From the NCBI RefSeq assembly GCF_030499535.1, contig NZ_JASTLB010000001.1, positions 124,001-188,000 of the forward strand: 64,000 bases of DNA, read 5' to 3'. The stretch comes from Streptomyces sp. TG1A-8. Lineage in GTDB: Bacteria; Actinomycetota; Actinomycetes; Streptomycetales; Streptomycetaceae. The notes below the pieces were generated by a model. It did not search any database. It saw nothing but the letters and a program-made list of their open reading frames with translations, and was not told the origin of the DNA. Below, in pieces: positions 1 through 42,336 of this stretch. A program made the position numbers and the translations under genes. Each line of letters starts with the position of its first letter. Position 1 is the stretch's first letter.

Positions 1-662
1 GCGCGCAGGGCGTGGGCCGCCAGGTGCAGCGCGACCAGTGAAGACGAACAGGCGGTGTCCACGCTGACCGCGGGGCCCTCGAAGCCGAAGACGTACGAGA
101 TGCGGCCGGAGGCGACACTGTCGGAGTTGCCTCCGGCCAGGAAGCCCTCGACCTCCTCGGGCACGTGGCGCAGGCGGGAGCCGTAGTCCTGGTACTGGAT
201 ACCAGCGAAGACGCCGACCTGCGCGCCGCGCTGGGCCTGCGGGTCGATGCCGGCCCGCTCGAACGCCTCCCAGGTGGTCTCCAGCAGCAGCCGTTGCTGC
301 GGGTCCATCGCGAGCGCCTCGTGCGGCGAGATACCGAAGAACTGCGGCTCGAAGCCCGCGATCGAGTCGAGGAAGCCGCCCTCACGGGCGTAGCTGCTGT
401 CCGCCCGGACGCCTTCCGGGTCGTACAGGCGCTCCAGGTCCCAGCCGCGGTCCGACGGGAACGGTGTGATGGCGTCCGTGCCCGAGGCGACCATGCGCCA
501 CAGGTCCTCGGGGCTGTTCACGCCGCCCGGGTAGCGGCAGGCCATGCCCACGATGGCGATGGGCTCGGTGTCCCTGGCCTCGAGCTTGGCCAGCCGCTGA
601 CGCGTGCGGTGCAGATCGCTCGTGACCCGCTTCAGGTAGGTGCGGAGCTTGTCGTCGTTCAC
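1..662 (-). CDS. Type I modular PKS, module 7 start (partial, runs off left edge)
   Basis: Only the first 220 or so residues are present. They are an N-terminal docking helix of about 30 residues followed by the N-terminal half of a ketosynthase, up to the active-site Cys motif DTACSSSL at the window edge. The Cys is present, so this KS is a normal condensing domain. I chose the GTG at 662 because an AGGGA-type ribosome binding site lies just upstream and the protein then begins [10 protein letters not shown], a typical class 1 docking start. The gene follows the previous PKS after 26 nt on the same strand, so the genes are probably co-transcribed and this protein takes the chain from module 6. 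Its extender and reductive domains cannot be seen here. Confidence 0.93.
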
Positions 663-688
663 TGCTGTCCCTCTACCTTGGTGGGCGG

Positions 689-3600
689 TCACGACATGCC
701 CAGTTCGTTGTCGATGAAGTCGAAGATCTCGTCGTCGTCGGCCGAGTCGAGGAGTTGGTCCACGCGGTCGACCTCGCTCGCCGAGCCCGCCTTGGCCAAC
801 AGATCCCGCAACCGGCCGGCTAGCTCGTCGCGGTAGCGCTCGTCGTCCAGGAGGACGGTGAGCCGCTCCAGCTCGGCGACGCCCGGCAGTCGCCCGTCCG
901 CCGGCTCCAGAACAAGTTCGGCTGCGAGGTAGCCGGCGATGGCCCGGCACGACGGGTAGTCGAAGAGCAGGGTGGCGGGAAGCCGCAGTCCGGTGACCGC
1001 GCCCAGCCGGTTGCGCAGTTCGACCGCGGTCAGCGAGTCAAAGCCCACCTCGAGAAGGCCACGGTCGACATCGACGGAGCCGGCCTCGGTGAATCCCAGC
1101 ACGGTGGCGGTGTGGTCACGGACCAGGTCGATCAGGGCCCGGTCGCGTTGTGTGTCCGTCATGCCGGACAGCCGCTGAGCCAGGCCCGCCGCCTCTGCGG
1201 CGCCGGTGGTGGCGTCGGCGGCGCTGCGCCGTACGGTCGAGCGCACCAGTCCCCGCAGCACCGCGGGCACCTCGCCCTGCGCCTGGACCGCCTTGGTGTC
1301 CAGGCGCAGCGGCAGCAGGACCGGCTGGTCCTCGCTGAGCGCTGTGTCGAACAGCTCCAGGCCCTCCGCGGGCGGGAAGGCGATGATGCCGCCCCGGGCG
1401 ATGCGCTTGAAGTCGTTCTCATCGAGGTGGCCGCTCATGCCGGCGTCGTTGGCCCACAGGCCCCAGGCCAGCGAGGCGGCCGGCAGTCCCTGGGCCCTGC
1501 GGTGGTGGGACAGGGCGTCCAGGAAGGCGTTGCCCGCCGCGTAGTTGGCCTGCCCCATGCCGCCGAAGACGCCGGCCACGGAGGAGAAGACCACGAAGGC
1601 CGACAGGTCCAGGTCCGCGGTGAGTTCCTGGAGGTTGAGGACCGCGTCGACCTTGGGCCGTAGGACCACGTCCAGTTGCTCGTCGGTGATGGCTGCCACG
1701 ATGCCGTCCCGCACCACACCGGCGGTGTGGACGACGGCCGTGACCGGGAACGCGGACGGGACCGCGGCAAGCAGGGCGGCGAGCGCGTCGCGGTCGGCGA
1801 CGTCACAGGCCGCCACCTCGACTTCGGCGCCCAGCGCCGTGAGCTCCTCCTGCAGCCGCGCGGCGCCTTCGCCGGCGGGGCCGCTGCGGCTGGTCAACAG
1901 AAGTCGTCCGACCCCGTGTTCGGTGACCAGGTGCCGGGACACGTGGGCACCGATCGCGCCGGTGCCGCCGGTCACCAGGACGGTGCCGCCGCGCTCCCAC
2001 TGCGGTGTGGTGGGAGCTGCGCCCACCGGAACGCGCGCGATGCGGTAGGCGTACGCCCGGCCGTCGCGCACCGCCAGTTGCGGCTCGCCGCCGGCCACGG
2101 CGCGCGCGAGTGCCGTGTCGTCGTCGTGGTCGACCAGCACGAACCGGTCCGGGTGCTCGGTCTGTGCGGAGCGGACCAAACCCCAGACGGCGGCACCGGC
2201 GAGATCGGTCACATCGTCCTCCGCGGTCAGGGGCACCGCGCCGCTGGTGGCGAAGACGAGCTTGGCCCCCTCCCCGTCCTGGGCGAGCCAGTCGCGGATG
2301 TCGGCGAGTGCCTGCCGGGTGGCGCGGCGCACGGCGTCGGCGTCCTGTCCCGGCTCGTAGCTGCGCACCTCGAACGCGGTGGCGCCCCCGGCGGCGGGCA
2401 GCGGTACCTCGATGAACTCCGGGCGGTACAGGGTCTGGTGGATCCGCCCGCCACCGGTCGCGGACCTGGCGGGTGCGGCCGGCCGCAGGGCGAGCGACTC
2501 GGCCGTGGCGACCGGTGTGCCCGTGGCGTCGGCGAGGGTGACGGACATCGAGCTGTCGCCGGTGGGCACCATGCGCAGCCGGACGGCGGCCGCGCCGCCG
2601 GCGTGCAGGGTGACGCCGCTCCAGGAGAACGGCAACCAGGCCTGGCCGCTGCCACTCAGCACACCGAAGGCCAGCGAGTGCAGCACGCTGTCCAGGAGAG
2701 CCGGGTGAAGTCCGAAGCGGCTGGCCTCGGACCGCACGGACGCGGGCAGGGCGGCCTCGGCGAACACCTCCTCGCCGCGGCGCCACACCGCCGTGAGCCC
2801 CTGGAAGACCGGACCGTAGGCAAAGCCGCTTTCGGTGAACCGGTCGTACAGGCCGGTGACGTCGATCCGCTCGGCGCCCGGTGGCGGCCACTCGACGAGC
2901 GACTGGGCAGCGGGTGTGGCGGCCGACGACAGCACACCGTCCGCGTGCCGGGTCCACGCTTCCTCGGCGGGCGCGTCCTGCGGCCGGGAGAAGACCTCCA
3001 GCGAGCGGGTCCCGTCTGCCGCCCGCGGGCCGACCCGCATCTGCAGGACCACGGCGCCCTGCGCCGGCAGCACCAGCGGTGCCGCCAGGGACAGTTCGTC
3101 GACCCGGCCGCAGCCGACCTCGTCGGCCGCCCGGACCGCCAGTTCGAGGAAGGCCGTCGCCGGGAACAACGCCTCGTCGAACACCCCGTGGTCGGCCAGC
3201 CACGGTGTGCTGTACAGCGACAGCCTGCTGGTGAACACGTATTGGTCCGACTCGGCCAGTTCGACGGCGGCGCCCAACAGCGGATGCCCGGTGGCGACCA
3301 GACCCGCCGACGTCACGTCGCCGGCGTCGGCTGGGGCATCGAGCCAGTAGCGCTCGCGCTGGAACGCGTAGGTGGGCAGCGGCACGCGCCGCACGTCGCG
3401 GTCCTCGAAGAACCGCTCCCAGTCGGGGGTGCGCACCTGGGTGTGCAACCGGCCCAGGGCGGCGGTCACCGAGTGGACCTCGTCGCGGTCCCGGTGCAGC
3501 AGCGGGATCAGCTCGGCTCGGCCCTCCAGGCAGTCCTGGGCGAGCGCGGTGAGGGAGCCGTCGGGGCCGATCTCGAGGAACGCGGTCACCCCGGCCCGTT

Positions 3601-6600
3601 CGAGGGTCCGAACACCGTCGAGGAACCGCACCGCCTGGCGGACGTGGTCCACCCAGTAGTCCGGTGTGCACAGCTGGTCGGCGTCGGCGAGGGCCCCGGT
3701 GACGTTGGAGACGATGGGGATACGCGGCGGGTGGAACTCGAGCTGTGCCGCGACCTCACGGAACTCCTTCAGCATGCCGTCCATGTGCGGGGAGTGGAAG
3801 GCGTGGCTGACTCGCAGCCGCTTGGTCTTGTAGCCGTCCGCGGCGAGTCGGCCGGCGACGTCCAGCACGGCCTCCTCGTCCCCGGCGATGACGGTGGCCG
3901 TCGTGCTGTTGAGCGCGGCCACGGCGACCGTGTCTCCACGGTCCGCGAGGAAGGGCAGGACCACGTCCTCGGGGGCCATCACGGACACCATGGCTCCGTC
4001 ACCGGGCATGGACTGCATGAGCCGGGCCCGCTGCGCCACCAGGCGGGCGGCGTCCGGCAGCGACAGCACCCCGGCGACGTGGGCGGCCGCCAGCTCGCCG
4101 ACCGAGTGGCCGATGAGGTAGTCGGGCCGCACGCCCCAGTGCTCGACGAGCCGGAAGAGCGCGACCTCGACGGCGAAGAGGGCCGGCTGGGTGAAGGCCG
4201 TCCGGTTGAGCAGGTCCGCGTCCGCCGAGTCGGCGGCGGAGCCGATGACGGCGCGCAGGGGCTGGTCCAGAAGCGGGTCGAGGGCTGCGCACACGGTGTC
4301 GAACGCCTCGGTGAACACCGGGAACTCGCGGTGCAGCCGCAGCCCCATACCCAGCCGCTGGCTGCCCTGTCCGGAGAAGAGGAACGCCAGGCGCCGCTCC
4401 GCGGGGAGAAGGGTGCCGGTCACCGACCGCAGGGCGGCACGGATCGCACCGTGGTCCTCGCCCTGCACGACGGCCCGGTGTTCGAGGTGCGCGCGGGCGG
4501 TGGCCAGGGTGTGGCCGACGTCGGCGAGCCGTACCTCCGGGTGCTCCGCCAGGTGCCTGTCGAGCCGGGCCGCCTGCTCGCGCAGCGCTTCGGCGCTGCG
4601 GGCGGACAGCACCAGCGGCACCGGCAGCGGCTCCCGTACGTCGTCGGTGGTCGCCGCGTCGTCGGGGGCCTGCTCCAGGATGGTGTGCGCGTTGGTGCCG
4701 CTGACACCGAAGGAGGACACGGCTGCCCGGCGGGGGTGGCCGGTGACGGGCCACGGGGTGTTCCCGGTGACCAGCTCGATGCTGCCCGCGGTCCAGTCGA
4801 TGAGCGGCGACGGCTCGTCCACGTGGAGGGTGCCGGGCACTGTGCCGTGCTGCATGGCCAGCACCATCTTGATGACGCCCGCGATGCCTGCCGCGGCTTG
4901 GGCGTGGCCGATGTTGGACTTGACCGAGCCGAGGAGCAGTGGCCGCGTGCGGTCCTGGCCGTAGGTCGCCAGCAGCGCCTGGGCCTCGATCGGGTCGCCC
5001 AGCCTGGTGCCGGTGCCGTGCGCCTCGACCACGTCGAGCTCGGTGGGCGCCAGCCGGGCACTGGCCAGGGCGTCGCGGATCACCCGCTGCTGGGAGGGAC
5101 CGTTGGGAGCGGTCAACCCGTTGGACGCGCCGTCCTGGTTGACCGCGCTGCCCCGCACGACGGCCAACACCGGGTGTCCGTTGCGCCGCGCGTCCGACAA
5201 CCTCTCCAGCAGCACGACGCCGACGCCCTCGGCCCAGGCGGTGCCGTCGGCGGCAGCCGCGAAGGGCTTGCAGCGGCCGTTGGCGGCGAGGCCGCGCTGC
5301 CGGCTGAACTCGATGAACGACACCGGGGTGGCCATCGCGGCGGCACCGCCGGCCAGCGCCATGGTGCACTCCCCGGCGCGCAGGGACTGCGCGGCGAGGT
5401 GGATGGCGACCAGCGAGGACGAGCAGGCGGTGTCCACGCTGACGGCCGGCCCCTCCAGGCCGAAGGTGTAGGAGATACGCCCGGAGGCGACGCTGCCCGC
5501 GCTGCCGATGCCGAGGTAGCCCTCCACTTCCTTCGGCGCGTTGCGCACCCGCAGACCGTAGTCGTGGTAGCTGGAGCCGACGAACACGCCGGCGCGGCTG
5601 CCCTTGACCGACTGCGGGTCGATGCCGGCCCGCTCGAATGCCTCCCAGCCGGTCTCGAGCAGCAGTCGCTGCTGCGGGTCGATGGTCGTCGCCTCCCGCG
5701 GGGAGATGCCGAAGAAGGCGGGGTCGAAGTCGGCCAGGTCGTGCAGGAAGCCGCCTTCGCGCGCGTAGGTGGTTCCGTGGTGGTCCGGGTCCGGGTCGTA
5801 CAGGGCGTCCAGGTCCCAGCCACGGTCTGTGGGGAACGGAGTGATGGCGTCACCGCCCTCGCTGATCAGCCGCCAGAAGTCCTCCGGGGAGTGGACGCCA
5901 CCGGGGAAGCGGCAGGCAAGGGACACGATGGCGATCTCGTCATCAGTGACCGCGGCGCCGGCCGCCGGGACCGCGACGTCCCGGGTCCGCGCCTCCGGCC
6001 CGCCGAGTTCCGCCACCAGGTGGTCGACGACAGCGGACGGGGTCGGGTGGTCGAAGACGAGGGTGACCGGCAGTCGCAGCCCAGTCGCTGCGGAGAGGCG
6101 GTTGCGGAGTTCGACCGCGGTCAGCGAGTCGCAGCCGAGGTCCTTGAAGACCCGGTCGCGGCCGATTGCGTCGGAATCGGGGTAGCCGAGGGCCTCGGCG
6201 GCCGCCGTTCGCACCAGCTCCAGCAGCGCGGCCCGGTCCAGCGCGGACGGCTGCTCGGGCCCGGCCGGCCGTTCGGCGAGCGCGGCAACCTCCGGCAGGT
6301 CGGCGATGAGGGGGCTGGGCCGCAGGGCGGTGAAGGCGGGGACGAACCGGTCCCACGCGAAGTCGGAGACAATCACGTGCGGTTCGCGTCGGCCGACAGC
6401 GTCCCGCAGGGCGGCGACGGCGCGCTCGGGGTCCATGGCGGGCATGCCGTCGCGGATCAGGCGGGCGGCCACTGCCTCGTCGGTCAGGCTCTTGCCGGCC
6501 CACAGCCCCCAGGAGACCGAGGTGGCGGGCAGACCTAGGTCGCGGCGGTGCAGGGCCAGCGCGTCGAGGTAGGCGTTGGCCGCGGCGTAACTGCCCTGTC

Positions 6601-9600
6601 CGGTGCCGGCGACGGTGGACGCCAGTGAGGAGAACAGCACGAACGCCGACAGGTCCAGGTCGCGGGTCAGTTCGTGCAGCAGCATCGCGGCGTCGGCCTT
6701 CGGCCGGAACACGCCGGCCGCGCGCTCGCCGGTGATGGAGTCGACCACGCCGTCGTCGAGGACACCCGCGGCGTGCACCACGGCGGTCAGCGGAGTCTCG
6801 GCCGGAATGCCGGCCAGGAGTTCCACGACGGCGTCCCGGTCGGCCACGTCGCAGGCGGCGACGGTGACCCGGGCGCCCAGTGCGCCGAGTTCGGCGACCA
6901 GTTCAGCCGCGCCGGGGGTGTCCGGGCCGCGCCGTCCGGTCAGCACCAGGTGTTCGGCGCCGGCCGTAGCCAGCCAACGGGCCACATGTCCGCCGAGGGC
7001 GCCCAGACCACCGGTGACCAGCACCGTTCCGGTGGGCTGCCACGGGTCGCCGGTGGCGGGGCCGGACAGCCGGTCGGCGTGCTCCACCCGGCGGCCGTAG
7101 ACGCCGGACGGGCGGACGGCCACCTGGTCCTCTCCGGTCTCCCCGGTGAGCACCGCCAGCAGTTGTTCCGCGGCCCGGTCGTCGAAGGCGGCGGGCAGGT
7201 CGACCAGGCCGGCCCATCGTGCCGGGTACTCGACGCCAGCCACGCCACCGAGGCCCCACAGGGCCGCCTGCGCGGGACTGTCCAGGGGATCGCCGGGGCT
7301 GACGGACACGGCGCCGCGGGTGGCGGTCCACAGCGGCGCGTCGATGCCCGCGTCCCCCAGGGCCTGGAGCAAGGACACGGTCAGCGGGAGCCCGGCAGGC
7401 AGCACCGACCCGGCCGACCATGGCCGGTCGGCGAGACCCAGCAGGGAGAGCACGCCTGTGGGTTCGCCGCCGGACGATGCCGTGCGCAGCAGTTCGGCGC
7501 GGGCGTTCCGGTCGGCGGTCTCCTCCCACGGGACCACGAGGATGTGGGCGCCGTGCCGGCGCAGTGCGTCGAGGTACCCGTCGACGTCCGTGCCGGCGGG
7601 AGTCACGACCAGCCAGTCACCGGCGGCCGGGCGGGCCGGGCCGCCGGTCAGGACACGCCAGGTGACCCGGTAGTGCCACGCGTCGCTGTCGCCCGCCGTG
7701 GGCAGGGCCTGGGGCTCGCCAGGGGGCGGAACGAGCCAGTAGTGCTGCCTCTGGAAGGCGTAGGTGGGCAGGGCGACACGGCGGCCGCCCGTGTGCGCGG
7801 CGGCCCAGTCCACCGTGGCGCCGCGCGCGTGCAGTTCGCCGAGGGAGGTCAGGAAGCGGTCCAGGCCGCCCTCCTCCCGGTGCAGGGTGCCGACAACGGC
7901 TCCGCCGTCGCCGGCCTCCAGTGCCTGCTGCACCCAGATCGTCAGCACGGGGTGCGGGCTGACTTCGACGAACGTGTCGTAGCCCGCGGTGATGAGCTGG
8001 TGGACGGCCTGGTCGAACTCCACGGGCCGGCGCAGGTTGCGGTACCAGTACCCGGCGTCCAGGGCGGAACCCTCCAGCCACGCGCTGTCGGCGGTGGACC
8101 AGAACCCGACCGCGGCCGGACGTGGACGCACACCGTCCAGCAGGCCGGAGAGTTCGTCGCGGATGCGCTCCACCTGGCGCGAGTGCGCGGCGAAGTCGAC
8201 ACCCGGGATCGGCCAGCGCAGGACGTCCTCGTCCGACAGCGCCGCGCTCAGTTCCTCCAGTGCCCCGGGGTCGCCGGAAAGCGTCACCGAAGCGGGACCG
8301 TTGACGGCGGCCACGCTGATACGGCCGTCCCAGTCGGCGATGCGTTCGCGCAGCGGTCCGGCCGCCATGGCCACGAACATCATCGCGCCCTGCCCGGCGA
8401 GCGCGGTGAGGGCCTTGCTGCGCAGGGCGACGATCATCGCCGCGTCCTCCAGCGTCAGCGCCCCGGCCACACACGCGGCGGCGATCTCGCCCTGGCTGTG
8501 ACCGACCACCGCGTCCGGTTCGACGCCGTAGGACCGCCACAGCGCGGCCAGGGAGACCATCACGGCGAACAGCACCGGCTGCACACGGTCCACCTGCTCG
8601 TAGTCACCGGATCGCAGGACCTCGGCCAGCGACCAGTCCACATGCGGAGCCAGGGCACGCTCACACTCGGCGAGGCGCTCGGCGAACACCGGCGACGACT
8701 CCAGCAGCTCCACCGCCATCCCCGCCCACTGCGACCCCTGACCCGGAAACACGAACACGGTCCGGCGGCCGGCGTCGGCGGTGTGTACGGGTGCCCTGCC
8801 GTCGAGCACCGCACGGAGGCCGGCGGCGAGTTCCTCGCGGTCGGCTCCCACGACCACGGCCCGCCGCTCGAACGCGGTCCTGGTGGTCGCCAGCGAGTAG
8901 CCGACATCCAGCGGGTCGGCGTCCGGCCAGTCCAGCAGGGCGCGTGCCTGGTCACGCACCGCGTCCTCGGTGCGGCCCGACAGGGTCCAGGCCACGACCG
9001 GTTCGGCGGCGGTCTCCGCGGTCGGCGCGGTCTCCTGAACAGGGGCGGGCTCGGCCTGTTCGATGATGACGTGCGCGTTGGTGCCGCTCATGCCGAACGA
9101 CGACACGCCGGCACGCCGCGGGCCGTCCCAGGCCCGCTCCTCGGTCAGCAGCTCGATGTTCCCCGCGGACCAGTCGATGAACGGCGAGGGGACGTCCGCG
9201 TGCAGCGTCCTGGGCAGCACGCCGTGCTCCATGGCCTGGAGCATCTTGATGATGCCGGCCACGCCGGAGGCGGCCTGGGTGTGGCCGATGTTGGACTTGA
9301 GCGAGCCCAGCCACAGCGGCCGGTCGCGGCCCTGGCCGTAGGTGGCGAGCAGGGCCTGGGCCTCGATCGGGTCGCCCAGCCTGGTGCCGGTGCCGTGCGC
9401 CTCGACCACGTGCACGTCGGAGGGTTCGAGTCCGGCGTTCGCCAGGGCCTGTTGGATGACGCGCTGCTGCGAGAGTCCGTTCGGCGCAGTCAGGCCGTTC
9501 GAGGCGCCGTCCTGGTTGACGGCGCTGCCGCGCACGACGGCCAACACCGGGTGCCCGTTGCGCCGGGCATCGGACATGCGTTCCAGGACGAGCATGCCGA

Positions 9601-14971: not shown

Positions 14972-14986
14972 GGTGTGGCGGTCCCC

Positions 14987-23900: not shown

Positions 23901-26900
23901 AGCACGGCGGCGACGTGGTCGCGCACCAGGTCGAGCAGGATACGGCCGCGCTCCTCCTCACTCGCGCCCGCGAGCCGTCGGGCGAGCGTGGACATGGCCG
24001 CGCCGGGCTCCTCGGCAGCGGTGACGGCCGAGCGGATGCGCCGCACCTCGGGCACGTCGTGCAGGAGCGGCCGGGCCCGGGAGGCGGTGAAGGCCAGGAA
24101 GAAACGGTCCCAGTCGATGTCCACCACGGTCAGGCAGGTCTCGTCGTCGTCCACCGCCTGCTGCATCACCGCCACGGCGTCCGCGGGGGACATCGCGTGC
24201 AAACCGTGCCGGGCCAGCAGGTCGCCGACGCCCGCGCGGCCGGCCATGCCCGCACCCGCCCAGGGGCCGAAGGCTACTGAGGTCGCCACGAGTCCCTCGG
24301 CGCGGCGTTGCTCGGCCAGGGCGTCCATGAACGCGTTGCCCGGGGCGTAGTTGCCCTGTCCGGGTATGCCGAAGGTACCGGCCACGGAGGAGAACATGAC
24401 GAAAGCGTCGAGGTCCAGGTCCCGGGTCAGCTCGTGCAGGTGGAGCGCACCGGCCATCTTCGGACGCAGGACCCGCTCGATCTGCTCCGGCCGCAGCGCC
24501 GCCAGCGTGTCGTCATCCAGGACGGCGGCGGAGTGCACGACCGCGGTGAGCGGGTGCTCGCGCGGCACCGTGCCCAGCAGCGTCGCCAGGGCGTCGCGGT
24601 CGGCCACGTCGCAGGCGGTGACCGTCACGCGGGAGCCGAGCTCCTCCAGCTCCCGGCGGAGTTCTTCGGCGCCGGGCGCCTGTGGACCGGCGCGGCCGAC
24701 GAGAAGCAGGTGCTCGGCGCCGTGTCCGGCGAGCCAGCGGGCAACGTGCGCGCCCAGGGCGCCGGTGCCGCCCGTGATGAGCGTGGTTCCGCCGGGCCGC
24801 CAAGCGCGGGCACCGGGACGGGCACTTCGTACGGCTCGCGTGAGACGGCGTACGGACACGCCGGTGGTCCGCACGGCCACCTGGTCCTCCGTGCCGTGGG
24901 CCGGGTCCGCCGAGCCGTCCGTGGGCAGGCCTGCGAGGACGGCGGCCAGCCGGGCCCGGGTGCGTTCGTCCCAGCCGTCCGGCAGGTCGACGAGGCCGCC
25001 CCAGCGGTCGGAGTGTTCGAGACCGGCCACCCGGCCGAGCCCCCACACCAGGGACTGTGCGGCAGCGGTGAGCCGCTCGGTGGAGTCCACGGCGACCGCG
25101 CCCCGGGTGGCCAGCCAGAGCGGCGCGGGGATTCCGGTGTCGCCGAGTGCCTGGAGGAGCGCCACGGTGGACACCAGTCCGCCGGGCGCCGCCGGGTGCC
25201 CGGGGCACGGCAACTCGTCAAGGGCGAGCAGCGACAGCACGCCCGCGACGGACTCGTCCGTGGCCGCGGACCGCAGCCGCGCGGCGAGGACCGCCCGGTC
25301 GTCGGCACCCGTCACGGGAAAGCTACGGACGTCCGCGCCGTACGCGGCCAGCAGCGCCGTGACGTCGCCGATGTACGTGTCGCCGGTGAGTGCTTCGGGC
25401 ACCGCCACCAGCCAGCGGCCGGACAGAGCGTCCGGGGCCGGCGCCCGGTCGGCGTCGGGACGCGGGGTCCAGGTGACGCGGTAACGCCAGGCCTGCGGTC
25501 CGGGCCGCGCGGACGCGGTGGCGCGCATGGTGTCGAGCCAGTACCGCCGGCGCTCGAAGGGGTAGGTCGGCAGCTCCGTCCGTCGGGCGCCGCTGCCCTC
25601 GTACAACGCCGCCCAGTCCACCGGCGCGCCGTGCACGTAGGCCTCGGCCAGGGAGGTGAGGAACCGCTCGCGGCCGCCGTCGCCCCGGCGCAGCGTGCAC
25701 AGCACCGCCGCCGGGCGGTCGGGGGCGCGGTCCAGGGACTCCGAGATGCCCTGCACGAGCACCGGGTGCGGGCTCACCTCGATGAAGAGCGCGGAGTGGC
25801 GGGCGAGCACGTCCGCCACAGCAGGACCGAATCGGACCGTGCCGCGGAGGTTCCGGTACCAGTACTCGGCGTCGAGTTCAGTGCCGTCCAGCACCGCGCC
25901 GGTGACCGTGGAGAGGAAGGGCACCGTGGCGCGGCGCGGCTCTATGCCGGCCAATGCCCCGATCACCGCTTCGCGGATCTCCTCGACGTGCGCCGAATGA
26001 GAGGCGTAGTCGACCGGGATCCGGCGGGCGCGGCAGCCCTCCGCCTCGCACGCCGTGAGGAGTTCGTCCAAGGCTTCCGGATCGCCGGAAACCACCACAG
26101 CGCCGGGTCCGTTGACGGCGGCGATCGCCAGCCGGCCTCCCCAGCGGGCGACGCGGCGTACGGCCGCCTCCTCCGGCTCGGCGACCGAGACCATGCCGCC
26201 GCGTCCGGCGAGGGCGCGCAGCGCCCGGCTGCGCAGGGCGACGACGCGGGCGCCGTCCTCCAGCGTCAGCGCACCGGCCACCACAGCAGCGGCGATCTCG
26301 CCCTGCGAGTGGCCGACGACCAGGTCCGGCCGCACACCGTGCGAGCGCCAGAGGGCCGCGAGGGAGACCATGACGGCGAACAGCGCGGGCTGTACGACGT
26401 CCACGCGCAGCAGGGCGGGTGCTCCGGGCTCGGCCAGGACCTGGGACAGGGACCAGTCGACGTAGGGCGCGAGAGCGTCCTCGCAGGCCCGCAACTGCTC
26501 GGCGAAGACCGGTGCGGACCGGGCGAGGTCGAGCGCCATACCGGCCCATTGCGAACCCTGGCCGGGGAACACGAAGACCGTTCTGGCATCGGGCACCACA
26601 CTGCCGTGCACCACGCCCGGCAGCGACAGTGCCTCGTCGGGCGCCGCCTGGGCGAGCAACGGCAGCGCGTCCGGCCCGCCCAGAAGAACGGCGCGGTCCT
26701 CGAACGCGGTGCGCCCGATCACCAGCGAGTAGCCGACGTCCAGCGGACGCGGCCGCGGTACGGCGGTGGTGAGGTGATCGGCCAGCCCAGCGGCCTGTCG
26801 GCGCAGAGCCTGGGCGTCACGGGCGGAGAGGACCCACGGCAGGGAGGTCGGTGCGTCCGGGCGATCGTCCGCGGCCGCCGGTGCAACCGGCGGGGCCTCT

Positions 26901-29900
26901 TCGACTACGACGTGGGCGTTGGTGCCGCTGACGCCGAAGGAGGAGACGCCGGCGCGGCGGGGACGGCCCGCGGTCCGCCACGGCAGTTGTTCCGTGAGGA
27001 GCCGGGCTGCGCCGGCCGACCAGTCCACTCGGGACGACGGCGTACGGACGTGCAGGGTCTTGGGCAGCGTCGCGTGCCGCATCGCCTCTACCATCTTGAT
27101 GACGCCGGCGATGCCCGCCGCGGCCTGGGTGTGGCCGATGTTGGACTTCAGCGAGCCGAGCCACACGGGCCCTTCACGATCCTGCCCGTAGGTGGCGATC
27201 AGGGCTTCGGCCTCGATCGGGTCGCCCAGCCGGGTACCTGTACCGTGCGCCTCGACGGCGTCGACCTCGGCGGCCGTCAGCCGGGCGCTCGCCAGGGCCT
27301 CGCGGATGACATTCTCCTGCGACGGACCGTGCGGTGCGGTCAGTCCGTTGGACGCACCGTCCTGGTTGACGGCGCTGCCGCGCACCAGCGCGAGCACCGG
27401 ATGCCCGTTGCGCCGGGCGTCCGACAACCGCTCCAGCACCAGCACGGCGACGCCTTCGCTCCAGCCGGTGCCTGCAGCATCGTCGCTGAAGGAGCGGCAC
27501 CGCCCGTCCGTGGCGAGGCCGTTCTGCCGGCTGAACTCCATCAGCATGCCGGGGCCCGCCATCACCGTGGCCCCGGCGGCCAGGGCCAGCGAGCACTCGC
27601 CCGCCCGCAGCGAGCGGGTCGCCATGTGCAGCGCCACCAGCGACGACGAACAGGCCGTGTCGATGGTCACGGCCGGACCGTGCAGACCGAATGTGTAGGA
27701 AAGGCGGCCCGAGGCGACGCTGCCGGCGCCGCCGACCAGACCGTACCCCTCCGCCTCGACGGGTAGCTCGTGCAGCCGGGGCAGGTAATCCTGGCCCATG
27801 GCGCCGACGAACACACCGGTGGCACTGCCACGCAGCGAGGACGGGACGATGCCGGCCCGCTCGAACGCCTCCCAGCTCGTCTCGAGCAGCAGCCGCTGCT
27901 GGGGGTCCATGGCGGCCGCCTCACGTGGCGAGATGCCGAAGAAGGCGGCGTCGAACTCGCCCACTCCCTGCAGGAATCCACCGAAGCCGCTGTGGGACGT
28001 GCCGTTGCTGCCCCCGCCGAGCAGGGCTTCCAGGTCCCAGCCGCGGTCCTCGGGAAGGGGGCCGACGGCGTCGGTCGCGCTCTCCACGATCCGCCACAGG
28101 TCCGCGGGAGAACGCACCCCGCCGGGCAGTCGGCAGCTCATGGCGACGATCGCCACGGGCTCGTCCTGGGGCCCGGCGGCCGGGCCGGCGGCCGCGCCGG
28201 TGCCGTCCGCACCGGTCAGAGCGCGGTGCAGGAAGGCCGCGACGTCCTCGACGGTCGGGTGGTTGTAGACCAGGGCGGCCGGCAGCCGCAGCCCCGTCGC
28301 GGCGGCCAGTCGGCCACGCAGCTCCAGTGACGAGGTCGAGTCGAATCCCAGAACCTTGAAGCTCAGGCGGACATCGACCTCCTCCGCGTCCGAGTAGCCG
28401 AGGACTACGGCGGCGTGCGACCTGACCAGGTCTGTCAGGGCGGGTAGGCCGGTGTCCGCCACCGCGGTCGCGGCCGGGGCGGGCTCGGCGGCCCGGCCGA
28501 GCCAGTACGACTGGCGCTGGAACGAGTAGGTGGGCAGCGCCACTCGGGCGGCGCCCGCGAGCAGGGGCGACCAGTCGACCTCGACTCCCTGTACGAAGAG
28601 TTCGGCCGCCGCACGCTTCAGCCGGTCCCATCCTCCGTCGTCCCGGCGCAACGTCCCGGCCGTGATCACGTCACCGACGCTCTCCGCCACCGCCGAGGTC
28701 AGCACTGGATGGGCGCTGACTTCGACGAACACGCCGTAACCCGATTCCGAGAGGTGCCGTACGGCCGCCTCGAACTCGACGGTACGGCGCAGGTTGCTGT
28801 ACCAGTACCCGGCGTCGAGGGCTGTGCCGTCCACCCAGTCCACGTCCACGGTGGAGAACATCGGAACGCCGCACTCACGGGGCGTCACTTCGCGAAGGAC
28901 GTACAGCAGCCTCTCCCTGATCTCCTCGATCTGGGAGGAGTGAGAGGCGTAATCGACGGGGAGCCGGCGCGCGCGGACGTCCCGCGCCTCGGCCAGGGCT
29001 TCCAGTTCGGCCAGAGCCGCAGGGGGGCCCGCCACGACAACCGACGACGGACCGTTGACCGTGGCGATCGAGAGTTCCGGCCCCAGCAGCGCCCGGACGT
29101 CCGGGGCCGACAGCGCCAGCGCGGTCATACCGCCGCGTCCGGTCAGCTCCCGAAGGGCCTTGCTCCGCAGGGCCACGACCCGGGCGCCGTCCTCCAGCGA
29201 CAGGGCTCCCGCTACCACGGCGGCCGCGACCTCGCCCTGGGAGTGGCCGAGCACCGCGTCCGGGACAACGCCCAGTGACTGCCACACGGCCGCGAGCGAC
29301 ACCATGATCGCCCACAGGACGGGCTGGACAACCTCCGTGCGCTGCAGCGCGTCCGCGTCGTGCAGCACGTCGGAGAGGCGCCAGTCCGTGAATGGTGACA
29401 GGGCCTGTTCGCACTCGGCCATGCGGGCGCGGAACACCGGTGAACCGGCCAGGAGTTCACGCCCCATGCCCACCCACTGTGGGCCCTGCCCGGGGAAGAC
29501 GAACACCGTCTTGCCCACGGGTGCCGCGACGGAGCCGGTGACCACGTCCCCACCCGCCTGACCGGCGGCCAGCGTGCGCAGTCCGGCGGCGCCCAGGGAA
29601 ACCGCTCGGTGGTCGAAAAGCGTACGGGACGACAGCAGGGAACCGCCGAGATCGACGTGGCCCGTTCCGGGGTGGTCGTCGATCCAGTCGGCCAGCCGCG
29701 CGGCCTGCGCGCGCAGCGCGGCCGGGGTCCGCCCGGACACCACGAGGGGCACGGCGCCGGGTACTGCGTGCCGCTCGGGGGCGGTCGGCGCCACGGTTGC
29801 GGGCGGATCGTAGGACGCCACCACGACGTGGCAGTTGGCACCGCCCAGGCCGAGGGAGGTGACGCCGGCGATCCGGCGATCCACGCGCCAGGGGGCGCGC

Positions 29901-31159
29901 TCGGTGAGTACCTTGAGGTTCAGCTCGTCGAGGGGAATGCCGGGCGGCGGCGTATCGAAGTTGAGGCTCGCCGGGATCTCGCCGTGCCGCACCGCCAGGA
30001 CGGCCTTGAGCAGGCCGACGACGCCTGCGGCGCTTTCCAGATGACCGATGTTGGTTTTGGCCGAGCCGACCAGCAGGGGCGAGCCGGCCGACCGTGCGGA
30101 GCCGGTAGATGCTCCCAGCGCAGCAGCCTCGACCGGGTCGCCGACCTTGGTGCCCGTACCGTGCAGCTCCACGTAGTCGACGTCAGCGGGTGAGATGCCG
30201 GCGGCCCGCTGGGCCAGCGTGACCAGTTCGCGTTGGGCTTCGACGTCGGGCACGGTCAGCGAGCTTCCATCGCCGTCGTGGTTGACGGCGCTGCCGAGGA
30301 GCACGCCGTGGATGGTGTCACCGTCGGCGATGGCCCGGTCGAGCAGCTTCAGCAGCACCAGCGCGCCCCCCTCGCCGCGCACGTAACCGTCGGCCCGCGC
30401 GTCGAAGGTGCGGCACCGCCCCTCCGGGGAGAGGGCACCGACGCCTGCGACGACCAGCGCGGTGTCGAGTGCCAGGTTGAGGTTGACGCCGCCGGCCAGC
30501 GCGGTGGTGGACTCGCCGGAGCGCAGGCTCTGGCAGGCCAGGTGCACGGCGACCAGTGACGAGGACTGGCCGGTGTCGACGAGTTGACTCGGGCCGCGCA
30601 CGCCCAGGGTGTGTGAGAGCCGGTTGGCGATGAGGGCGCGCTGTGTGCCGACGAGCGTGTGGTGGGTGATGTCGCCGTCCGACTCGCGCCGCAGCGTGGC
30701 GTAATCGTCCCAGCCCGCGGCGACGAACACGCCCGTGCGGGTGCCGGCAAGTGCGGCGGGCAGCAGGCCCCCGTGTTCGACGGCCTCCCAGCCCAGTTCC
30801 AATACGAGCCGCTGCTGCGGGTCCATGGCGGCGGCCTCGCGGGGCGAGACACCGAAGAAGGGTGCGTCGAACGCGTCGGGATGTTCGATGAACCCGCCCC
30901 AGCGCGCGCTGGCCGCGTGCGGGGTCTTCGCGGCGTCGAGCTGGCCGACCGTCCACCTATCGGCCGGGGCCTCGGTGATGGCGTGCCGCTTGTCGAGCAT
31001 CAGCCGCCAGAAGGCGTCGGGATCGGGCGCGCCCGGCAGCCGGCACGAGTAGCCGATGACCGCGATGGCAGCCTGCGACGGGTCCCTCCTGGTCAACGCT
31101 TGCTCCTCAAAATACTGCAGGTTTTTGGACCGGGTTTCGGACATGGATGTTCGGGTCAC
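14987..31159 (-). CDS. Type I modular PKS, KSQ loading module and modules 1-3
   Basis: Starts the polyketide chain. The loading module is KSQ (DTGQSSS, Gln198 replacing the catalytic Cys), AT (from about 552; GHSQGE/YASH, methylmalonyl) and ACP (939). It should decarboxylate methylmalonyl to a propionyl starter. Module 1 has KS (997), AT (1528, YASH), KR (2122; LDD with Pro two residues after the Tyr, B2 pattern) and ACP (2439). Module 2 has KS (2500), AT (3044; HAFH, malonyl), KR (3624; Trp motif without LDD, A1 pattern) and ACP (3934). Module 3 has KS (3997), AT (4510, YASH), a degenerate KR (5040; no nucleotide-binding glycine motif, catalytic Ser and Tyr lost) and ACP (5277), then a docking tail. 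Start: the GTG at 31159 has GAGG eight bases upstream. An ATG at 31144 (MSETRSKN) is the alternative. The frame is open up to 31243, but that part has no ribosome binding site. Confidence 0.95.
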   Translation of the reverse strand: MTRTSMSETRSKNLQYFEEQALTRRDPSQAAIAVIGYSCRLPGAPDPDAFWRLMLDKRHAITEAPADRWTVGQLDAAKTPHAASARWGGFIEHPDAFDAPFFGVSPREAAAMDPQQRLVLELGWEAVEHGGLLPAALAGTRTGVFVAAGWDDYATLRRESDGDITHHTLVGTQRALIANRLSHTLGVRGPSQLVDTGQSSSLVAVHLACQSLRSGESTTALAGGVNLNLALDTALVVAGVGALSPEGRCRTFDARADGYVRGEGGALVLLKLLDRAIADGDTIHGVLLGSAVNHDGDGSSLTVPDVEAQRELVTLAQRAAGISPADVDYVELHGTGTKVGDPVEAAALGASTGSARSAGSPLLVGSAKTNIGHLESAAGVVGLLKAVLAVRHGEIPASLNFDTPPPGIPLDELNLKVLTERAPWRVDRRIAGVTSLGLGGANCHVVVASYDPPATVAPTAPERHAVPGAVPLVVSGRTPAALRAQAARLADWIDDHPGTGHVDLGGSLLSSRTLFDHRAVSLGAAGLRTLAAGQAGGDVVTGSVAAPVGKTVFVFPGQGPQWVGMGRELLAGSPVFRARMAECEQALSPFTDWRLSDVLHDADALQRTEVVQPVLWAIMVSLAAVWQSLGVVPDAVLGHSQGEVAAAVVAGALSLEDGARVVALRSKALRELTGRGGMTALALSAPDVRALLGPELSIATVNGPSSVVVAGPPAALAELEALAEARDVRARRLPVDYASHSSQIEEIRERLLYVLREVTPRECGVPMFSTVDVDWVDGTALDAGYWYSNLRRTVEFEAAVRHLSESGYGVFVEVSAHPVLTSAVAESVGDVITAGTLRRDDGGWDRLKRAAAELFVQGVEVDWSPLLAGAARVALPTYSFQRQSYWLGRAAEPAPAATAVADTGLPALTDLVRSHAAVVLGYSDAEEVDVRLSFKVLGFDSTSSLELRGRLAAATGLRLPAALVYNHPTVEDVAAFLHRALTGADGTGAAAGPAAGPQDEPVAIVAMSCRLPGGVRSPADLWRIVESATDAVGPLPEDRGWDLEALLGGGSNGTSHSGFGGFLQGVGEFDAAFFGISPREAAAMDPQQRLLLETSWEAFERAGIVPSSLRGSATGVFVGAMGQDYLPRLHELPVEAEGYGLVGGAGSVASGRLSYTFGLHGPAVTIDTACSSSLVALHMATRSLRAGECSLALAAGATVMAGPGMLMEFSRQNGLATDGRCRSFSDDAAGTGWSEGVAVLVLERLSDARRNGHPVLALVRGSAVNQDGASNGLTAPHGPSQENVIREALASARLTAAEVDAVEAHGTGTRLGDPIEAEALIATYGQDREGPVWLGSLKSNIGHTQAAAGIAGVIKMVEAMRHATLPKTLHVRTPSSRVDWSAGAARLLTEQLPWRTAGRPRRAGVSSFGVSGTNAHVVVEEAPPVAPAAADDRPDAPTSLPWVLSARDAQALRRQAAGLADHLTTAVPRPRPLDVGYSLVIGRTAFEDRAVLLGGPDALPLLAQAAPDEALSLPGVVHGSVVPDARTVFVFPGQGSQWAGMALDLARSAPVFAEQLRACEDALAPYVDWSLSQVLAEPGAPALLRVDVVQPALFAVMVSLAALWRSHGVRPDLVVGHSQGEIAAAVVAGALTLEDGARVVALRSRALRALAGRGGMVSVAEPEEAAVRRVARWGGRLAIAAVNGPGAVVVSGDPEALDELLTACEAEGCRARRIPVDYASHSAHVEEIREAVIGALAGIEPRRATVPFLSTVTGAVLDGTELDAEYWYRNLRGTVRFGPAVADVLARHSALFIEVSPHPVLVQGISESLDRAPDRPAAVLCTLRRGDGGRERFLTSLAEAYVHGAPVDWAALYEGSGARRTELPTYPFERRRYWLDTMRATASARPGPQAWRYRVTWTPRPDADRAPAPDALSGRWLVAVPEALTGDTYIGDVTALLAAYGADVRSFPVTGADDRAVLAARLRSAATDESVAGVLSLLALDELPCPGHPAAPGGLVSTVALLQALGDTGIPAPLWLATRGAVAVDSTERLTAAAQSLVWGLGRVAGLEHSDRWGGLVDLPDGWDERTRARLAAVLAGLPTDGSADPAHGTEDQVAVRTTGVSVRRLTRAVRSARPGARAWRPGGTTLITGGTGALGAHVARWLAGHGAEHLLLVGRAGPQAPGAEELRRELEELGSRVTVTACDVADRDALATLLGTVPREHPLTAVVHSAAVLDDDTLAALRPEQIERVLRPKMAGALHLHELTRDLDLDAFVMFSSVAGTFGIPGQGNYAPGNAFMDALAEQRRAEGLVATSVAFGPWAGAGMAGRAGVGDLLARHGLHAMSPADAVAVMQQAVDDDETCLTVVDIDWDRFFLAFTASRARPLLHDVPEVRRIRSAVTAAEEPGAAMSTLARRLAGASEEERGRILLDLVRDHVAAVLGHTGAATVPAERSFKELGFDSLTGVEVRNRLGAATGLRLPATVVYDHPTPAALVRYLRGELAGGAVGAAPEPLLPAPSAAEEDPIAVVAMSCRFPGGVRTPDDLWRLVSEGVDAVGAFPADRGWNLDALYHPDPAHPGTTYVREGAFLHDAADFDADFFGISPREALAMDPQQRVLLETSWEVLERAGIDPTTLRGSRTAVFAGTNGQDYPTLLAAAPAGYADSEGYGSTGAAASVVSGRVSYALGLEGPAVTIDTACSSALVALHLACQSLRQGECELALAGGVTVMSTPGLFVSFSRQQGLAPDGRAKAYAAAADGTAWGEGVGVVLLERLSDARRHGHPVLALVRGSAVNQDGASNGLAAPNGPSQQRVITAALAAAGLRAEDVDAVEGHGTGTRLGDPIETQALMATYGQGRAEERPLWLGSVKSNIGHTQAAAGVAGLIKMIMAMRHGVLPESLHLDAPSDVVDWTAGAVRPLAEARPWGPRTGSPRRFGVSAFGISGTNAHVILEQPPQESTEPAGAPAADRAASGARLFPLAAKGHAALREQAASLLALLEAESVTEDGLTDVAYSLATTRAALPDRAVVLAEDRDDLVRALGGLAAGRPSAGVFRGTARDDAADTVAFLFTGQGSQRVGMGAELSARLPAFAAAFDEVCTELDRHLDRPLRQIVDEDAEALERTEYAQPALFAVEVALFRVLRDWGVRPLRLVGHSVGELAAAHAAGVLTLSDAAVLVTARGRLMQAQRSDGAMLAVQASADEVADSLAEHGSRVAVAAVNAPGSVVLSGDSDAVAALEGHWRERGRRTKLLRTSHAFHSSHLDGMLAEYERIAATLDYSPPRIPVVSTVTGADLTTEEACSPAYWARQVRETVRFADAVRTLRAVGATIFVEIGPDGVLSGMVPDCLPEESPLAVSLLRDGRPEEQTLLSAVARLHTAGVTPDWEALFAGAGARRRPLPTYPFQHKRFWPRVPAGTAAGAPAHQWHYRIGWTELTALREPAGAGGPDGTWLALAPDTEDGTQALAACRAWLERLGTPIVLVAAGTGRDTLAERLRDAAVRGPVSGVLSLLALDERPHPDHPAIPTGLAGTLTAAQALTDAKLGAPLWVVTQSAVTVDPEQDTARPEQAQTWGLGQVLGLEQPELWGGLVDLPADPDESALARLGAAVTGGGDDEDQLAVRAGGVHGRRLERVPAPAAGPAWQPRGTVLITGGTGVLGRHVALRLAHDGAEHLVLTSRHGPAAPGAAAFRDELAAHGVRVTIEACDVTDRDAVAALLAKYPPTAVVHTAGALVLGSVADDTAAVLEEAAAAKALGARHLDELLGDTPLDAFVLFSSVAGVWGSGGQGAYAAANACLDALAARRRARGLTAVSVAWGPWGGGGMADEAALERLRRRGLAAMAPAAAVTALAALPTGRDAAVVIADVRWEDFVPAYTAARPRALIQDLPEVRSFLDDREEEPAPPASALAARLAGLPSARRAEAVRDLVRDHVAAVLGHDSAEGVAVDRVFRDLGFDSLTAVELRDRLVEATGVRLPVTEVFDHPTVADLADRLHAELAGAASGPDTRPAATDAVRAAADEPLAIVSMACRLPGGVASPEDLWRLVADGEDAIGPLPTGRGWDLERLYHPDPDHEGTFYARGGGFLDGAGDFDAAFFGISPREALAMDPQQRLLLETSWEALERAGIDPASLRGTQGGVFMGVAAQGYGSGPAEGVEGHLLSGTVTSVASGRIAYTLGTEGPAVTVETACSSSLVALHLAGQSLRSGECAYALVGGAAVMASPDVFVEFSRQRGLSPDGRCRSFAEGADGTGWSEGVGVLVIERLSDARRNGHPVLAVIRGSAVNQDGSSNGLTAPNGLAQQRVIRQALANARLAPADVQLVEAHGTGTALGDPIEAQALLATYGQNREEPLWLGSLKSNIGHTQAAAGVAAVIKTVMAMRHGTLPRTLYAEEPSTRIDWAAGNVRLLTETRPWAGPRRAGVSAFGMSGTNAHVVLEQAEPAEVAVPASPDRAAPLLLSARTAGALREHAADLHRLLSATGVRTADVAWTLAGKSCFERRMAVLGTDRAALLSGLAAPGTAPNVVTGQAGSGRTVFVFPGQGTQWTGMALELAEAEPVFGSWLDACAEALAPHVDWSLREVLADEAALRRVDVVQPALFAVMVSLAELWRSYGVGPDAVMGHSQGEIAAAVVAGVLGLDDGAKAVALRSQAIRRSLAGKGGMVSVAADEKTVRALLGGQEGRIGIAALNGPDAIVVSGAPEALDVLVADCEARGVRARRVPVDYASHSAHVEQVREELLAALADVRPTMGETPLLSTVVGDFIDGTALGAEYWYRNLREPVALHAATERLLRTGHTLFIEVGPHPVLVSGIEGTAADAGLAVTTVGTLLRGQGGPDRMRAALAEAWTAGADVDRTALTGPGHHVELPTYPFQREHYWLPTPGRTGPPRQQAPELLYRTEWRALPEQGVPVPLDDWAVVVPDGGHPVAAALPGAVTTDAGLRGVTGPVAGVLCLLPPTDTPALVRALDTAGIQAPLWCVTTEAERTADQAAVWGLGQVIGLEQPERWGGLVDLPADLDDEVIHRLRTALAGAESQVRVRADGTYARRLVRVPQVAPPAERWAPGHVLVRGADGPLGAELTDWLERHGAEGVRVCADPTAPPEAGERTVIQIAAAEPPAGPVAETVVTVPAELTGAGDTFVLLHPLSGVWGAARQSAATARYAGLAALVTGLRNRGVRAVTVAVGGWETHAPAERPVPVDAVMRAVRRAVERDEAALIVADVDWELITSGVSTPRQLNLVSELPDAAVEERSDDLVERLSALSEADQRRALLDLVIEQVGATLGHDTPGAVRPDSPFADIGFDSLLAVQFRNRLCTATGLAISPTVVFDHPTPVVLADHLHGELLAGPDPVAPMLAELDRLERALGQLPVVDEISTRLHTLLRRWNERSAPADAGELSSASADELFDLLDNDFGTA

Positions 31160-31846
31160 GCGGAACGCCTCGAGCGCCATGTGCCGACACGTGTCGTGGC
31201 AACACTCGCCCTGCGCTGTGTGTGGAGGATCGGTGGGTGGCATGCCGTTCGCTCACACCCCGCCAACCCACTGTCAGCGAGCGGCACGCCGACTCGACCT
31301 GCCGTGAGGTCCGTGGCGCGACGGCAAGAAGTACACACGATCCTCACCGTCGCGGTGCCGTCCGGTCACTGTGCCGTCCGGCCGTTGCCACCGACGACGG
31401 CTCCGGGGCGCCACGGTCGAGGCCGACGGCTGATCCGGTGGATCTCCAGTGGCGCGACTGATCGAGCGCCACGCGGCGTGGGTGGCTCCGGCACAGCCCG
31501 GGTAGCGACAACCCGCGCAGGACCGTAGTCAACTCGTTGTTCCTCGCCTCAGGTTGACGCGCATGCCGCACAGTCCGGCACGAATCCGCCGTCGCCCGCT
31601 TCACGTGTTCCCGTAACTCCTCGCCGCTCACCACACCGACCACCGCCCTGTTTCGACACCCCGCCCCGGTACTCCGGGTCTTGGCGTGGGTGGTGTTGAC
31701 GTCAGGTGTCGCGCCCGGCCTGCACGCCCAGTCTCTCAGGGGCGCATATCGTCTCGATGACGCGCGGTGGAACAGTCTCCGCATCCCGGGTCCGCACGAC
31801 TGTCACAGCGGGGCCGTGGGGAGCCCGGGGACGCGACCGCGTGCGC
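31160..31846. other. Intergenic region upstream of the PKS genes
   Basis: About 690 bases with no convincing gene. Short open frames occur on both strands, but none resembles a known family or has a good ribosome binding site. The promoter of the PKS operon must lie here or further upstream. I could not pick out clear -10/-35 boxes. No pathway-specific regulator is encoded on this side of the PKS genes in this window. Confidence 0.5.
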
Positions 31847-33100: not shown

Positions 33101-33253
33101 TGGGTCAACATCTGGCGCGACCCGGCAGGAGCCGCAGCGGTGAGAGCAGCCAACGACGGCAACGAGACCGTGCCGACCGTCGTCGTGGCGGGCCGGCCAC
33201 ACACCAACCCCGATCCCGAACGGGTGCGCGAACAGCTCTCCCCTTCCACATGA
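33099..33253 (+). pseudogene. Mycoredoxin/glutaredoxin-like gene, 3' remnant
   Basis: The last 51 codons read WVNIWRDPAGAAAVR, then NDGNETVPTVVV and a closing PHTNPDPERVR, ending in TGA at 33251-33253. This is the second half of actinobacterial mycoredoxins, including the TVP cis-proline motif. The N-terminal half with the redox CxxC is absent and the IS110-type fragment abuts it. Confidence 0.7.
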
Positions 33254-37224: not shown

Positions 37225-37250
37225 GGGGCGGCTCCGGGGACGTCGGGGTG

Positions 37251-37272
37251 GGGCCCGCCGGCGGCCGGGCCC
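37251..37272 (-). terminator. Short GC hairpin between the GH27 and GH95 genes
   Basis: GGGCCCG at 37251-37257 can pair with CGGGCCC at 37266-37272. The hairpin sits just after the GH27 stop and may be a partial terminator or an mRNA-stabilising structure inside the operon. Confidence 0.4.
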
Positions 37273-37280
37273 CGGGGGTG

Positions 37281-39098: not shown

Positions 39099-39147
39099 GG
39101 TTCGTGCCTCCTGTGGGTTCGGTGTTCAATCGGGGGAACGGGGCGGC

Positions 39148-40982: not shown

Positions 40983-41004
40983 GGGAAGGCCTTTCCGGTC
41001 CTGG

Positions 41005-42318: not shown

Positions 42319-42336
42319 CGTTGCTCCTCGTACGTG

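Follow-up and report, generated by a model that had tools for sequence, protein, structure and literature searches.

A KSQ-loaded modular polyketide synthase of Streptomyces sp. TG1A-8, predicted to make a bafilomycin-type plecomacrolide, with an exact AT5/AT11 repeat

Gene and module organization of the locus

Analysis of a 64,000-nucleotide stretch of Streptomyces sp. TG1A-8 DNA (hereafter the window), corresponding to bases 124001–188000 of a 7.1 Mb contig (C1) in a 7.66 Mb, four-contig genome, was undertaken. Modular PKS genes are found on its minus strand and extend beyond its left edge, and neighbouring stretches of the same genome were analysed too. ORF calls and Pfam scans, the latter covering all four PKS genes, revealed a line of a loading module, eleven extension modules and a TE spread over genes A to D with 4-3-4-1 modules (Table 1); the whole line contains 12 KS in cluster order. 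The window part, genes A and B, makes up about half of it. The named close relatives of the window's PKS proteins are all from Streptomyces.

A preliminary description of the window had given the domain order from the starter through module 6, and this order was confirmed by ORFs, Pfam and motifs. It had also expected about five more modules and a TE to the left of the window; five modules (M7–M11) and a TE, rather than a single module, were found there. We add that the loading KS is a KSQ, that module 3 keeps a KR remnant and that bases 1–662 encode the start of module 7. Several relatives of gene A begin about 49 codons later, near 31096, and position 31159, the start given in the preliminary description, is a possible alternative.

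Table 1. Features of the PKS locus. Coordinates refer to the window unless preceded by C1 (genome contig).
Feature	Coordinates	Strand	Basis
PKS gene A, 5418 aa, loading module KSQ-AT-ACP and modules 1–3	14987..31243	-	ORF, Pfam, motifs
KSQ active site DTGQSSS of loading KS, Cys to Gln, predicted decarboxylase	30557..30577	-	motif
Loading AT, VDYASH (methylmalonyl type)	28634..29548, approximate	-	motif, AT tree
Module 1: KS-AT(YASH, methylmalonyl type)-KR(LDD, B type)-ACP	23723..28162, approximate	-	Pfam, motifs
Module 2: KS-AT(HAFH, malonyl type)-KR(W motif, A type)-ACP	19250..23653, approximate	-	Pfam, motifs
Module 3: KS-AT(YASH, methylmalonyl type)-[broken KR]-ACP	14987..19171, approximate, to gene end	-	Pfam, motifs
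Degenerate KR remnant of module 3, without middle part and catalytic Tyr	15389..16558, approximate	-	KR profile
PKS gene B, 4760 aa, modules 4–6	689..14971	-	ORF, Pfam
Module 4: KS-AT(YASH, methylmalonyl type)-KR(W motif, A type)-ACP	10388..14872, approximate	-	Pfam, motifs
GRINS-like segment over AT4	12902..13621	-	exact matches of 1291 nt to AT8 and 850 nt to AT10; GC skew and TA skew each >25%
Module 5: KS-AT(VDFAAH, methoxymalonyl clade)-KR(LDD, B type)-ACP	6017..10318, approximate	-	Pfam, motifs, AT tree
AT5 core, letter-for-letter identical to AT11 over 824 bp	7943..8766; AT11 C1:101539-102362	-	exact match; sequences differ outside block
Module 6: KS-AT(HAFH, malonyl type)-DH-KR-ACP	689..5941, approximate, to gene end	-	Pfam, motifs
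PKS gene C start (modules 7–10): docking helix and first part of KS7	1..662	-	start deduced from docking helix
PKS gene C, whole	C1:104065-about 124662	-	mostly left of window
Module 7: KS-AT-DH-KR-ACP, YASH	gene C	-	Pfam, motif
Module 8: KS-AT-DH-ER-KR-ACP, YASH	gene C	-	Pfam, motif
Module 9: KS-AT-KR-ACP, YASH	gene C	-	Pfam, motif
Module 10: KS-AT-DH-KR-ACP, YASH	gene C	-	Pfam, motif
PKS gene D (module 11 and TE)	C1:98080-104049	-	left of window
Module 11: KS-AT-DH-KR-ACP-TE, VDFAAH	gene D	-	Pfam, motif
320 aa and 362 aa gene pair left of TE gene	C1:96968-97930, C1:95886-96974	-	homology to pair in reference genome G066
Methoxymalonyl set: O-methyltransferase, 3-hydroxyacyl-CoA dehydrogenase, ACP, acyl-CoA dehydrogenase, FkbH	C1:90942-95093	+	Pfam
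IS110-type transposase, 5' side of PKS	32537..33202	-	scan

Across the whole line the HAFH motif is found in the ATs of modules 2 and 6, VDFAAH in those of modules 5 and 11, and YASH in the loader and the other seven modules. The DH of module 6 reads HxxxDxxxxP in place of the usual HxxxGxxxxP. The KR remnant of module 3 matched a profile built from five KRs of the same PKS (2.1e-50), with both ends matching and the middle unmatched, and is 75–93% identical in the three relatives compared. The broken KR is predicted to leave a ketone at C19.

The cluster was taken to end at the IS110-type transposase, because the genes scanned beyond it belong to sugar metabolism and unrelated functions. A sugar-use locus outside the PKS cluster, at window positions 33641–45867, includes a GDSL lipase, GH95, two alpha-galactosidases, ABC transport parts and a ROK regulator. 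With an IS240-type DDE fragment at C1:89481–89993, the cluster has transposase sequences on both flanks, as if it had been moved or trimmed. A 4'-phosphopantetheinyl transferase gene, identified by Pfam, lies at C1:87455–88543, near the methoxymalonyl genes. Elsewhere in the genome, a second FkbH gene (C4:40967–42031) is located near another type I PKS with 7 KS (C4:49863–82367), perhaps a second methoxymalonyl-using cluster, and a giant PKS region (C1:606305–710493) contains 19 KS matches and open frames of up to 8147 aa, with a TE at C1:635513. Among 392 genomes drawn evenly from the genus, a close relative of the TE of gene D was found only in the window's own genome (614.8 bits; next 277.4). 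A contig scan returned seven loci, three matching at 82–95% and the other four at 35–36%.

Relationship to bafilomycin-family synthases

The bafilomycin PKS is described as one starter and eleven extender modules encoded by five genes in a 4-3-2-2-1 arrangement (PMC3679948). As the sequence reference for this family we used genome G066, which has five PKS genes, also 4-3-2-2-1, and whose last PKS protein is P0241 (Streptomyces sp. NBC_01116). Among the matches listed, this protein shares 83% identity with its K. setae counterpart and 86–87% with the K. griseola and K. cheerisanensis proteins. An ALAS gene over the family cut-off (532.7 bits; cut-off 338.55) directly precedes the PKS. K. setae is named as a bafilomycin producer in PMC3679948, and K. 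griseola and K. cheerisanensis in PMC4384148 and PMC4064034. The reference was judged bafilomycin-like because its last PKS protein is near those of the three species and an ALAS gene stands beside the PKS.

Along the line, the extender pattern from M1 to M11 is Me, H, Me, Me, X, H, Me, Me, Me, Me, X, where X is an AT of the methoxymalonyl clade. Malonyl-type ATs are thus at M2 and M6, methoxymalonyl-type at M5 and M11, and methylmalonyl-type elsewhere, the plecomacrolide pattern. The states read from the domains are OH, OH, C=O, OH, OH, ene, ene, CH2, OH, ene, ene; as in plecomacrolides, M3 is unreduced, M6, M7, M10 and M11 have DH-KR, M8 has DH-ER-KR, and the other modules have KR only. In bafilomycin numbering M1–M11 set C22/C23, C20/C21, C18/C19, C16/C17, C14/C15, C12/C13, C10/C11, C8/C9, C6/C7, C4/C5 and C2/C3, respectively, and with this numbering extender choice and reduction in each of the 11 modules, read from AT motifs, the AT tree and Pfam, fit bafilomycin. 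KR motif flags (LDD or the A-type W) agree with the reference in nine of the ten KR modules; the tenth, M11, differs by one motif residue (LSD here, LDD in the reference), with the A-type W in neither. No counterpart of the M3 KR remnant was found in the reference.

KS phylogeny was analysed in a tree of 43 rows that included six KS from other PKSs of the same genome as controls; three 150FB pieces with mismatching counts were left out, and the row labelled 150FB_KS8 is KS9 by gene position. KS3, KS4, KS5 and KS7 each pair with the KS of equal number in the reference at a support of 100/99, and KS2 (99/60) and KS6 (85/97) pair weakly with theirs. In the same tree no pairing by position was found for KS1 and KS8–KS11. 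In the comparison of AT and KS phylogeny suggested in the preliminary description, KS3, KS4, KS5, KS7 and AT5 (see below) thus agree with the bafilomycin family, and KS1 and KS8–KS11 do not. Since four KS pair by number and KS1 and KS8–KS11 do not, the line appears to be in part orthologous by position to bafilomycin-family PKSs, and its front end (loader and KS1) may be of other origin.

The domain pattern exceeds chance: beyond the window's edge the remaining modules and the TE follow in bafilomycin order, and four KS (KS3, KS4, KS5 and KS7) pair by number with those of the reference. Judged by class and module logic as read from sequence, the window very probably holds the leading part of an entire cis-AT modular PKS for a bafilomycin-type 16-membered plecomacrolide. 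The bafilomycin/hygrolidin-type class named in the preliminary description is supported by M7–M11 and the TE. Its rival, an elaiophylin-type macrodiolide, shares a similar reductive pattern in the early modules, but elaiophylin-type lines have far fewer modules before the TE; the eleven extension modules found here rule it out, and the methoxymalonyl genes and the position of AT5 in the methoxymalonyl clade leave it practically no probability. A concanamycin-type product was rejected on module count as well, with 11 extension modules here and 14 modules given for concanamycin (PMC3679948).

The flanking genes were compared with the same reference. The methoxymalonyl set, expected in the preliminary description, is present beyond the TE. 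Its FkbH scored 376.2 bits (cut-off 146.65), and the set is 58–68% identical to that of the reference and 93–97% identical, in the same gene order, to that of S. olivaceoviridis; in 150FB, FkbH is on the other side of the cluster, upstream of the loader. The gene pair between this set and the TE gene gave no significant Pfam matches. Its 320 aa and 362 aa products are 55% and 67% identical, respectively, to those of two genes of the reference cluster and match in size BafCII (321) and BafCI (360) as given in PMC3679948. In S. lohii such a pair is described as adenylating fumarate and then transferring it to the C21 hydroxyl (PMC7827423). From size, order and homology we infer that the pair corresponds to the S. 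lohii fumarate-adenylating and fumaryl-transferring enzymes. A plus-strand ORF at C1:95715–97919 had been considered as a regulator and was rejected, codon-position GC pointing to two minus-strand genes, the fumaryl-pair homologues. No ALAS gene (C5N; BafZ), as expected of a bafilomycin B1 cluster, over the family cut-off was found in the TG1A-8 genome (best 310.6 vs 338.55 bits) or in 150FB; S. olivaceoviridis has one, on contig C33. Neither the AfsR and LuxR regulators nor the TEII known from the baf cluster turned up among the flank ORFs scanned.

The combination of a DTGQSSS KSQ and a YASH loading AT was found in all seven close relatives of protein A examined (78–91% identical over the loader, picked from at least 120 matches listed), and the 150FB loader likewise has a KSQ and a YASH loading AT. 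In the AT tree the loading AT is placed in the methylmalonyl part. A KSQ with a methylmalonyl AT gives a propionyl starter. Because the loading module combines a KSQ with a methylmalonyl-type AT and an ACP, in contrast to the AT-ACP without KS in the reference, we moderately favour propionate over isobutyrate as the predicted starter, with an ethyl rather than an isopropyl end at C23. A product of the same class with an isobutyryl starter, in which the KSQ loader takes dimethylmalonyl, or arrives at isobutyryl in some other way, and ordinary bafilomycin C1 is made, is unlikely but deserves consideration: bafilomycin uses this starter, and Hwang et al. assign its loading AT to the dimethylmalonyl type (PMC3679948). 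Against it stand the place of the YASH loading AT within the methylmalonyl part of the tree, the KSQ loader common to all seven relatives but without a loading KS equivalent in the reference, and the failure of the window's KS1 to group with KS1 of the reference.

The AT5/AT11 repeat and the substituent at C2

The block in which AT5 and AT11 are identical extends from just before FVFPGQGSQ to SPHPVL and thus comprises the AT core without linkers. In a tree of 74 ATs, one clade (100/99) contains the reference AT5, AT5 and AT11 of 150FB, AT11 of P0006, AT11 of NBC_00690, and AT5 and AT11 of the window. The odd AT5, which the preliminary description had placed at a methoxymalonyl site, thus sits with bafilomycin-family AT5, apart from methylmalonyl ATs. 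Within the clade, AT11 of the window groups with AT5 of 150FB and not with AT11 of 150FB, so the copy was most likely made from M5 to M11.

In S. olivaceoviridis, the contigs on the M5 side and on the M11 side begin with the same ~55 letters, ~60 bases inside the AT5/AT11 block, which suggests that this strain carries the same repeat. Assemblers can collapse or mis-copy exact 824 bp repeats; nevertheless, an assembly artefact in place of a copied domain is very improbable, as the two copies sit on a single 7.1 Mb contig, each with its own flanks, and contigs starting inside the block are what would be expected if the repeat exists in S. olivaceoviridis too.

Five close relatives of protein D were taken from at least 120 matches listed. 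Four of them (P0001–P0004) carry VDYASH at AT11, and the fifth (P0006) carries VDFAAH. The AT11s of P0001–P0004 fall among methylmalonyl ATs of the window's lineage; the S. profundus AT11 groups with AT7 of the same synthase. In a tree of the post-AT part of protein D, the window and S. olivaceoviridis are sister to P0001–P0004 (99/99 for the six, 91/92 for the four alone), and 150FB and P0006 fall outside; in the KS11 tree the place of the window is unsettled. A methoxymalonyl-type AT11 may have been either kept or regained in the window's lineage. S. speibonae (L016, L099–L101) was left out of the trees because of runs of N in its PKS contigs; one of its ATs, near L016:256, reads PVDYASH, in a module made uncertain by a gap.

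Bafilomycin carries a methoxy group at C2 and hygrolidin a methyl group, while C14 of hygrolidin is also methoxylated. The AT11 motif was inspected in 54 bafilomycin-type terminal proteins (P0241–P0291, P0293, P0316, P0326), which were among at least 120 matches listed and have ~2100 aa and at least 75% identity; one protein of 1757 aa is included and longer multi-module rows were dropped. YASH is present in 37, FASH in 16 and FAGH in one. In the AT tree, seven of eight bafilomycin-type AT11s, that of the reference included, lie in the methylmalonyl part, and only that of NBC_00690 (P0326) is in the methoxymalonyl clade. YASH at AT11 was accordingly rejected as proof of methylmalonyl use, being found, like FASH, in a set that makes up 53 of the 54 proteins and includes K. 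setae, K. griseola and K. cheerisanensis. A methylmalonyl-like AT11 is no proof of a C2 methyl group, in P0001–P0004 either, because bafilomycin-type AT11s are methylmalonyl-like in 53 of 54 proteins although C2 of bafilomycin is methoxylated.

For the window, a methoxy group at C2, as in bafilomycin, is predicted with good confidence over the methyl group of hygrolidin because AT11 is identical to AT5, not because of its motif. A hygrolidin-type product would require AT11 to use methylmalonyl despite being a copy of AT5. The methylmalonyl-type AT11 in four of the five close relatives, to which the window and S. olivaceoviridis are sister, speaks for it, as does the hygrolidin formula, C38H58O11, which equals a propionate start with C2 methyl, C14 methoxy and fumarate. 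We nevertheless regard it as quite improbable, since identical AT cores are expected to use the same unit, and the M5 carbon of bafilomycin, C14, carries a methoxy group (PMC3679948). Since four of the five close relatives carry a methylmalonyl-type AT11, this position may be a natural AT-swap site that switches C2 between methoxy (bafilomycin) and methyl (hygrolidin).

Other ATs of the line are repeated as well. AT4, AT8 and AT10 are near-identical, and AT9 is 91% identical at the protein level and shares a shorter stretch. GC and TA skew exceed 25% over 720, 720, 360 and 720 bp at AT4, AT8, AT9 and AT10, respectively. GRINS are defined by >90% identity within one PKS and GC and TA skew >25% (PMC10394414), a definition that AT4, AT8 and AT10, and over a shorter stretch AT9, fit. 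The skewed stretches are 360–720 bp here, compared with about 1 kb in GRINS, and the AT5/AT11 repeat, although exact, shows no strong skew.

Predicted product and related systems

In the pathway that we propose, KSQ would decarboxylate methylmalonyl-ACP to the propionyl starter, the chain would be extended 11 times, the unreduced C19 ketone would close the hemiketal, the TE would lactonise, and the flanking pair would put a fumaryl ester on C21. The product would be similar to bafilomycin C1, with ethyl for isopropyl and methoxy groups at C2 and C14. Its predicted formula, derived from that of bafilomycin A1, is C38H58O12 (C34H56O9 before fumarylation). Loading through KSQ and the AT11 copy of AT5 are two refinements of the bafilomycin-type reading in the preliminary description. 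The domain logic is already known; the KSQ-loader lineage and the exact AT5-to-AT11 copy are new. Only tentatively do we propose, as a combined reading, that the AT11 switch site was overwritten more than once in one lineage, by an AT5 copy (C2 methoxy) here and by methylmalonyl ATs (C2 methyl) in the sisters, and that the product of the window's synthase is an undescribed plecomacrolide with a propionate start, methoxy groups at C2 and C14 and a fumaryl ester.

Bafilomycins are in standard use as inhibitors of the V-ATPase, and this cluster would add a congener built on another starter. For hygrolidin-type compounds, the lineage with KSQ loaders is a candidate genetic source. The AT5-to-AT11 copy marks natural cut points, at the AT core without linkers, and so bears on AT-swap boundaries in PKS engineering; relatives that differ at AT11 would permit a test of extender choice.

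Compared with bafilomycin PKSs (bafSI–SV of S. griseus DSM 2608, bafAI–AV of S. lohii, and K. setae, all via the reference), the order of loading module, 11 modules and TE is common, and the methoxymalonyl gene set and the fumaryl adenylation/transfer pair are present in both. The loader is KSQ-AT(YASH)-ACP here and AT-ACP without KS in the reference. AT11 is a copy of AT5 here and a methylmalonyl-like sequence in bafilomycin clusters, and the TE shares only 44% identity with the reference TE. The line is divided among four genes (4-3-4-1), in contrast to the five (4-3-2-2-1) described for bafilomycin (PMC3679948). With a different loader, gene split and ALAS content, this is not the bafilomycin cluster proper.

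Neither a hygrolidin gene cluster nor a report on a propionate starter for hygrolidin was found in the openly licensed literature. By structure, the hygrolidin family has the same ring and hemiketal class and a fumaryl ester, and its formula fits a propionate starter; it differs in the C2 methyl group, set against a methoxymalonyl-type AT11 here.

The closest systems are those with KSQ loaders. S. olivaceoviridis JCM 4499, Streptomyces sp. 150FB, S. profundus, NBC_01401, DR7-3, NPDC093109 and S. speibonae belong to the same lineage as the window, with a KSQ loader in each strain whose first protein was read, a first protein of ~5370–5430 aa, a fused M7–M10 protein of ~6860 aa and an M11-TE protein 75–81% identical. 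AT11 in this lineage is a copy of AT5 in the window and probably in S. olivaceoviridis, a separate methoxymalonyl-type domain in 150FB and P0006, and of methylmalonyl type in DR7-3, S. profundus, NBC_01401 and NPDC093109.
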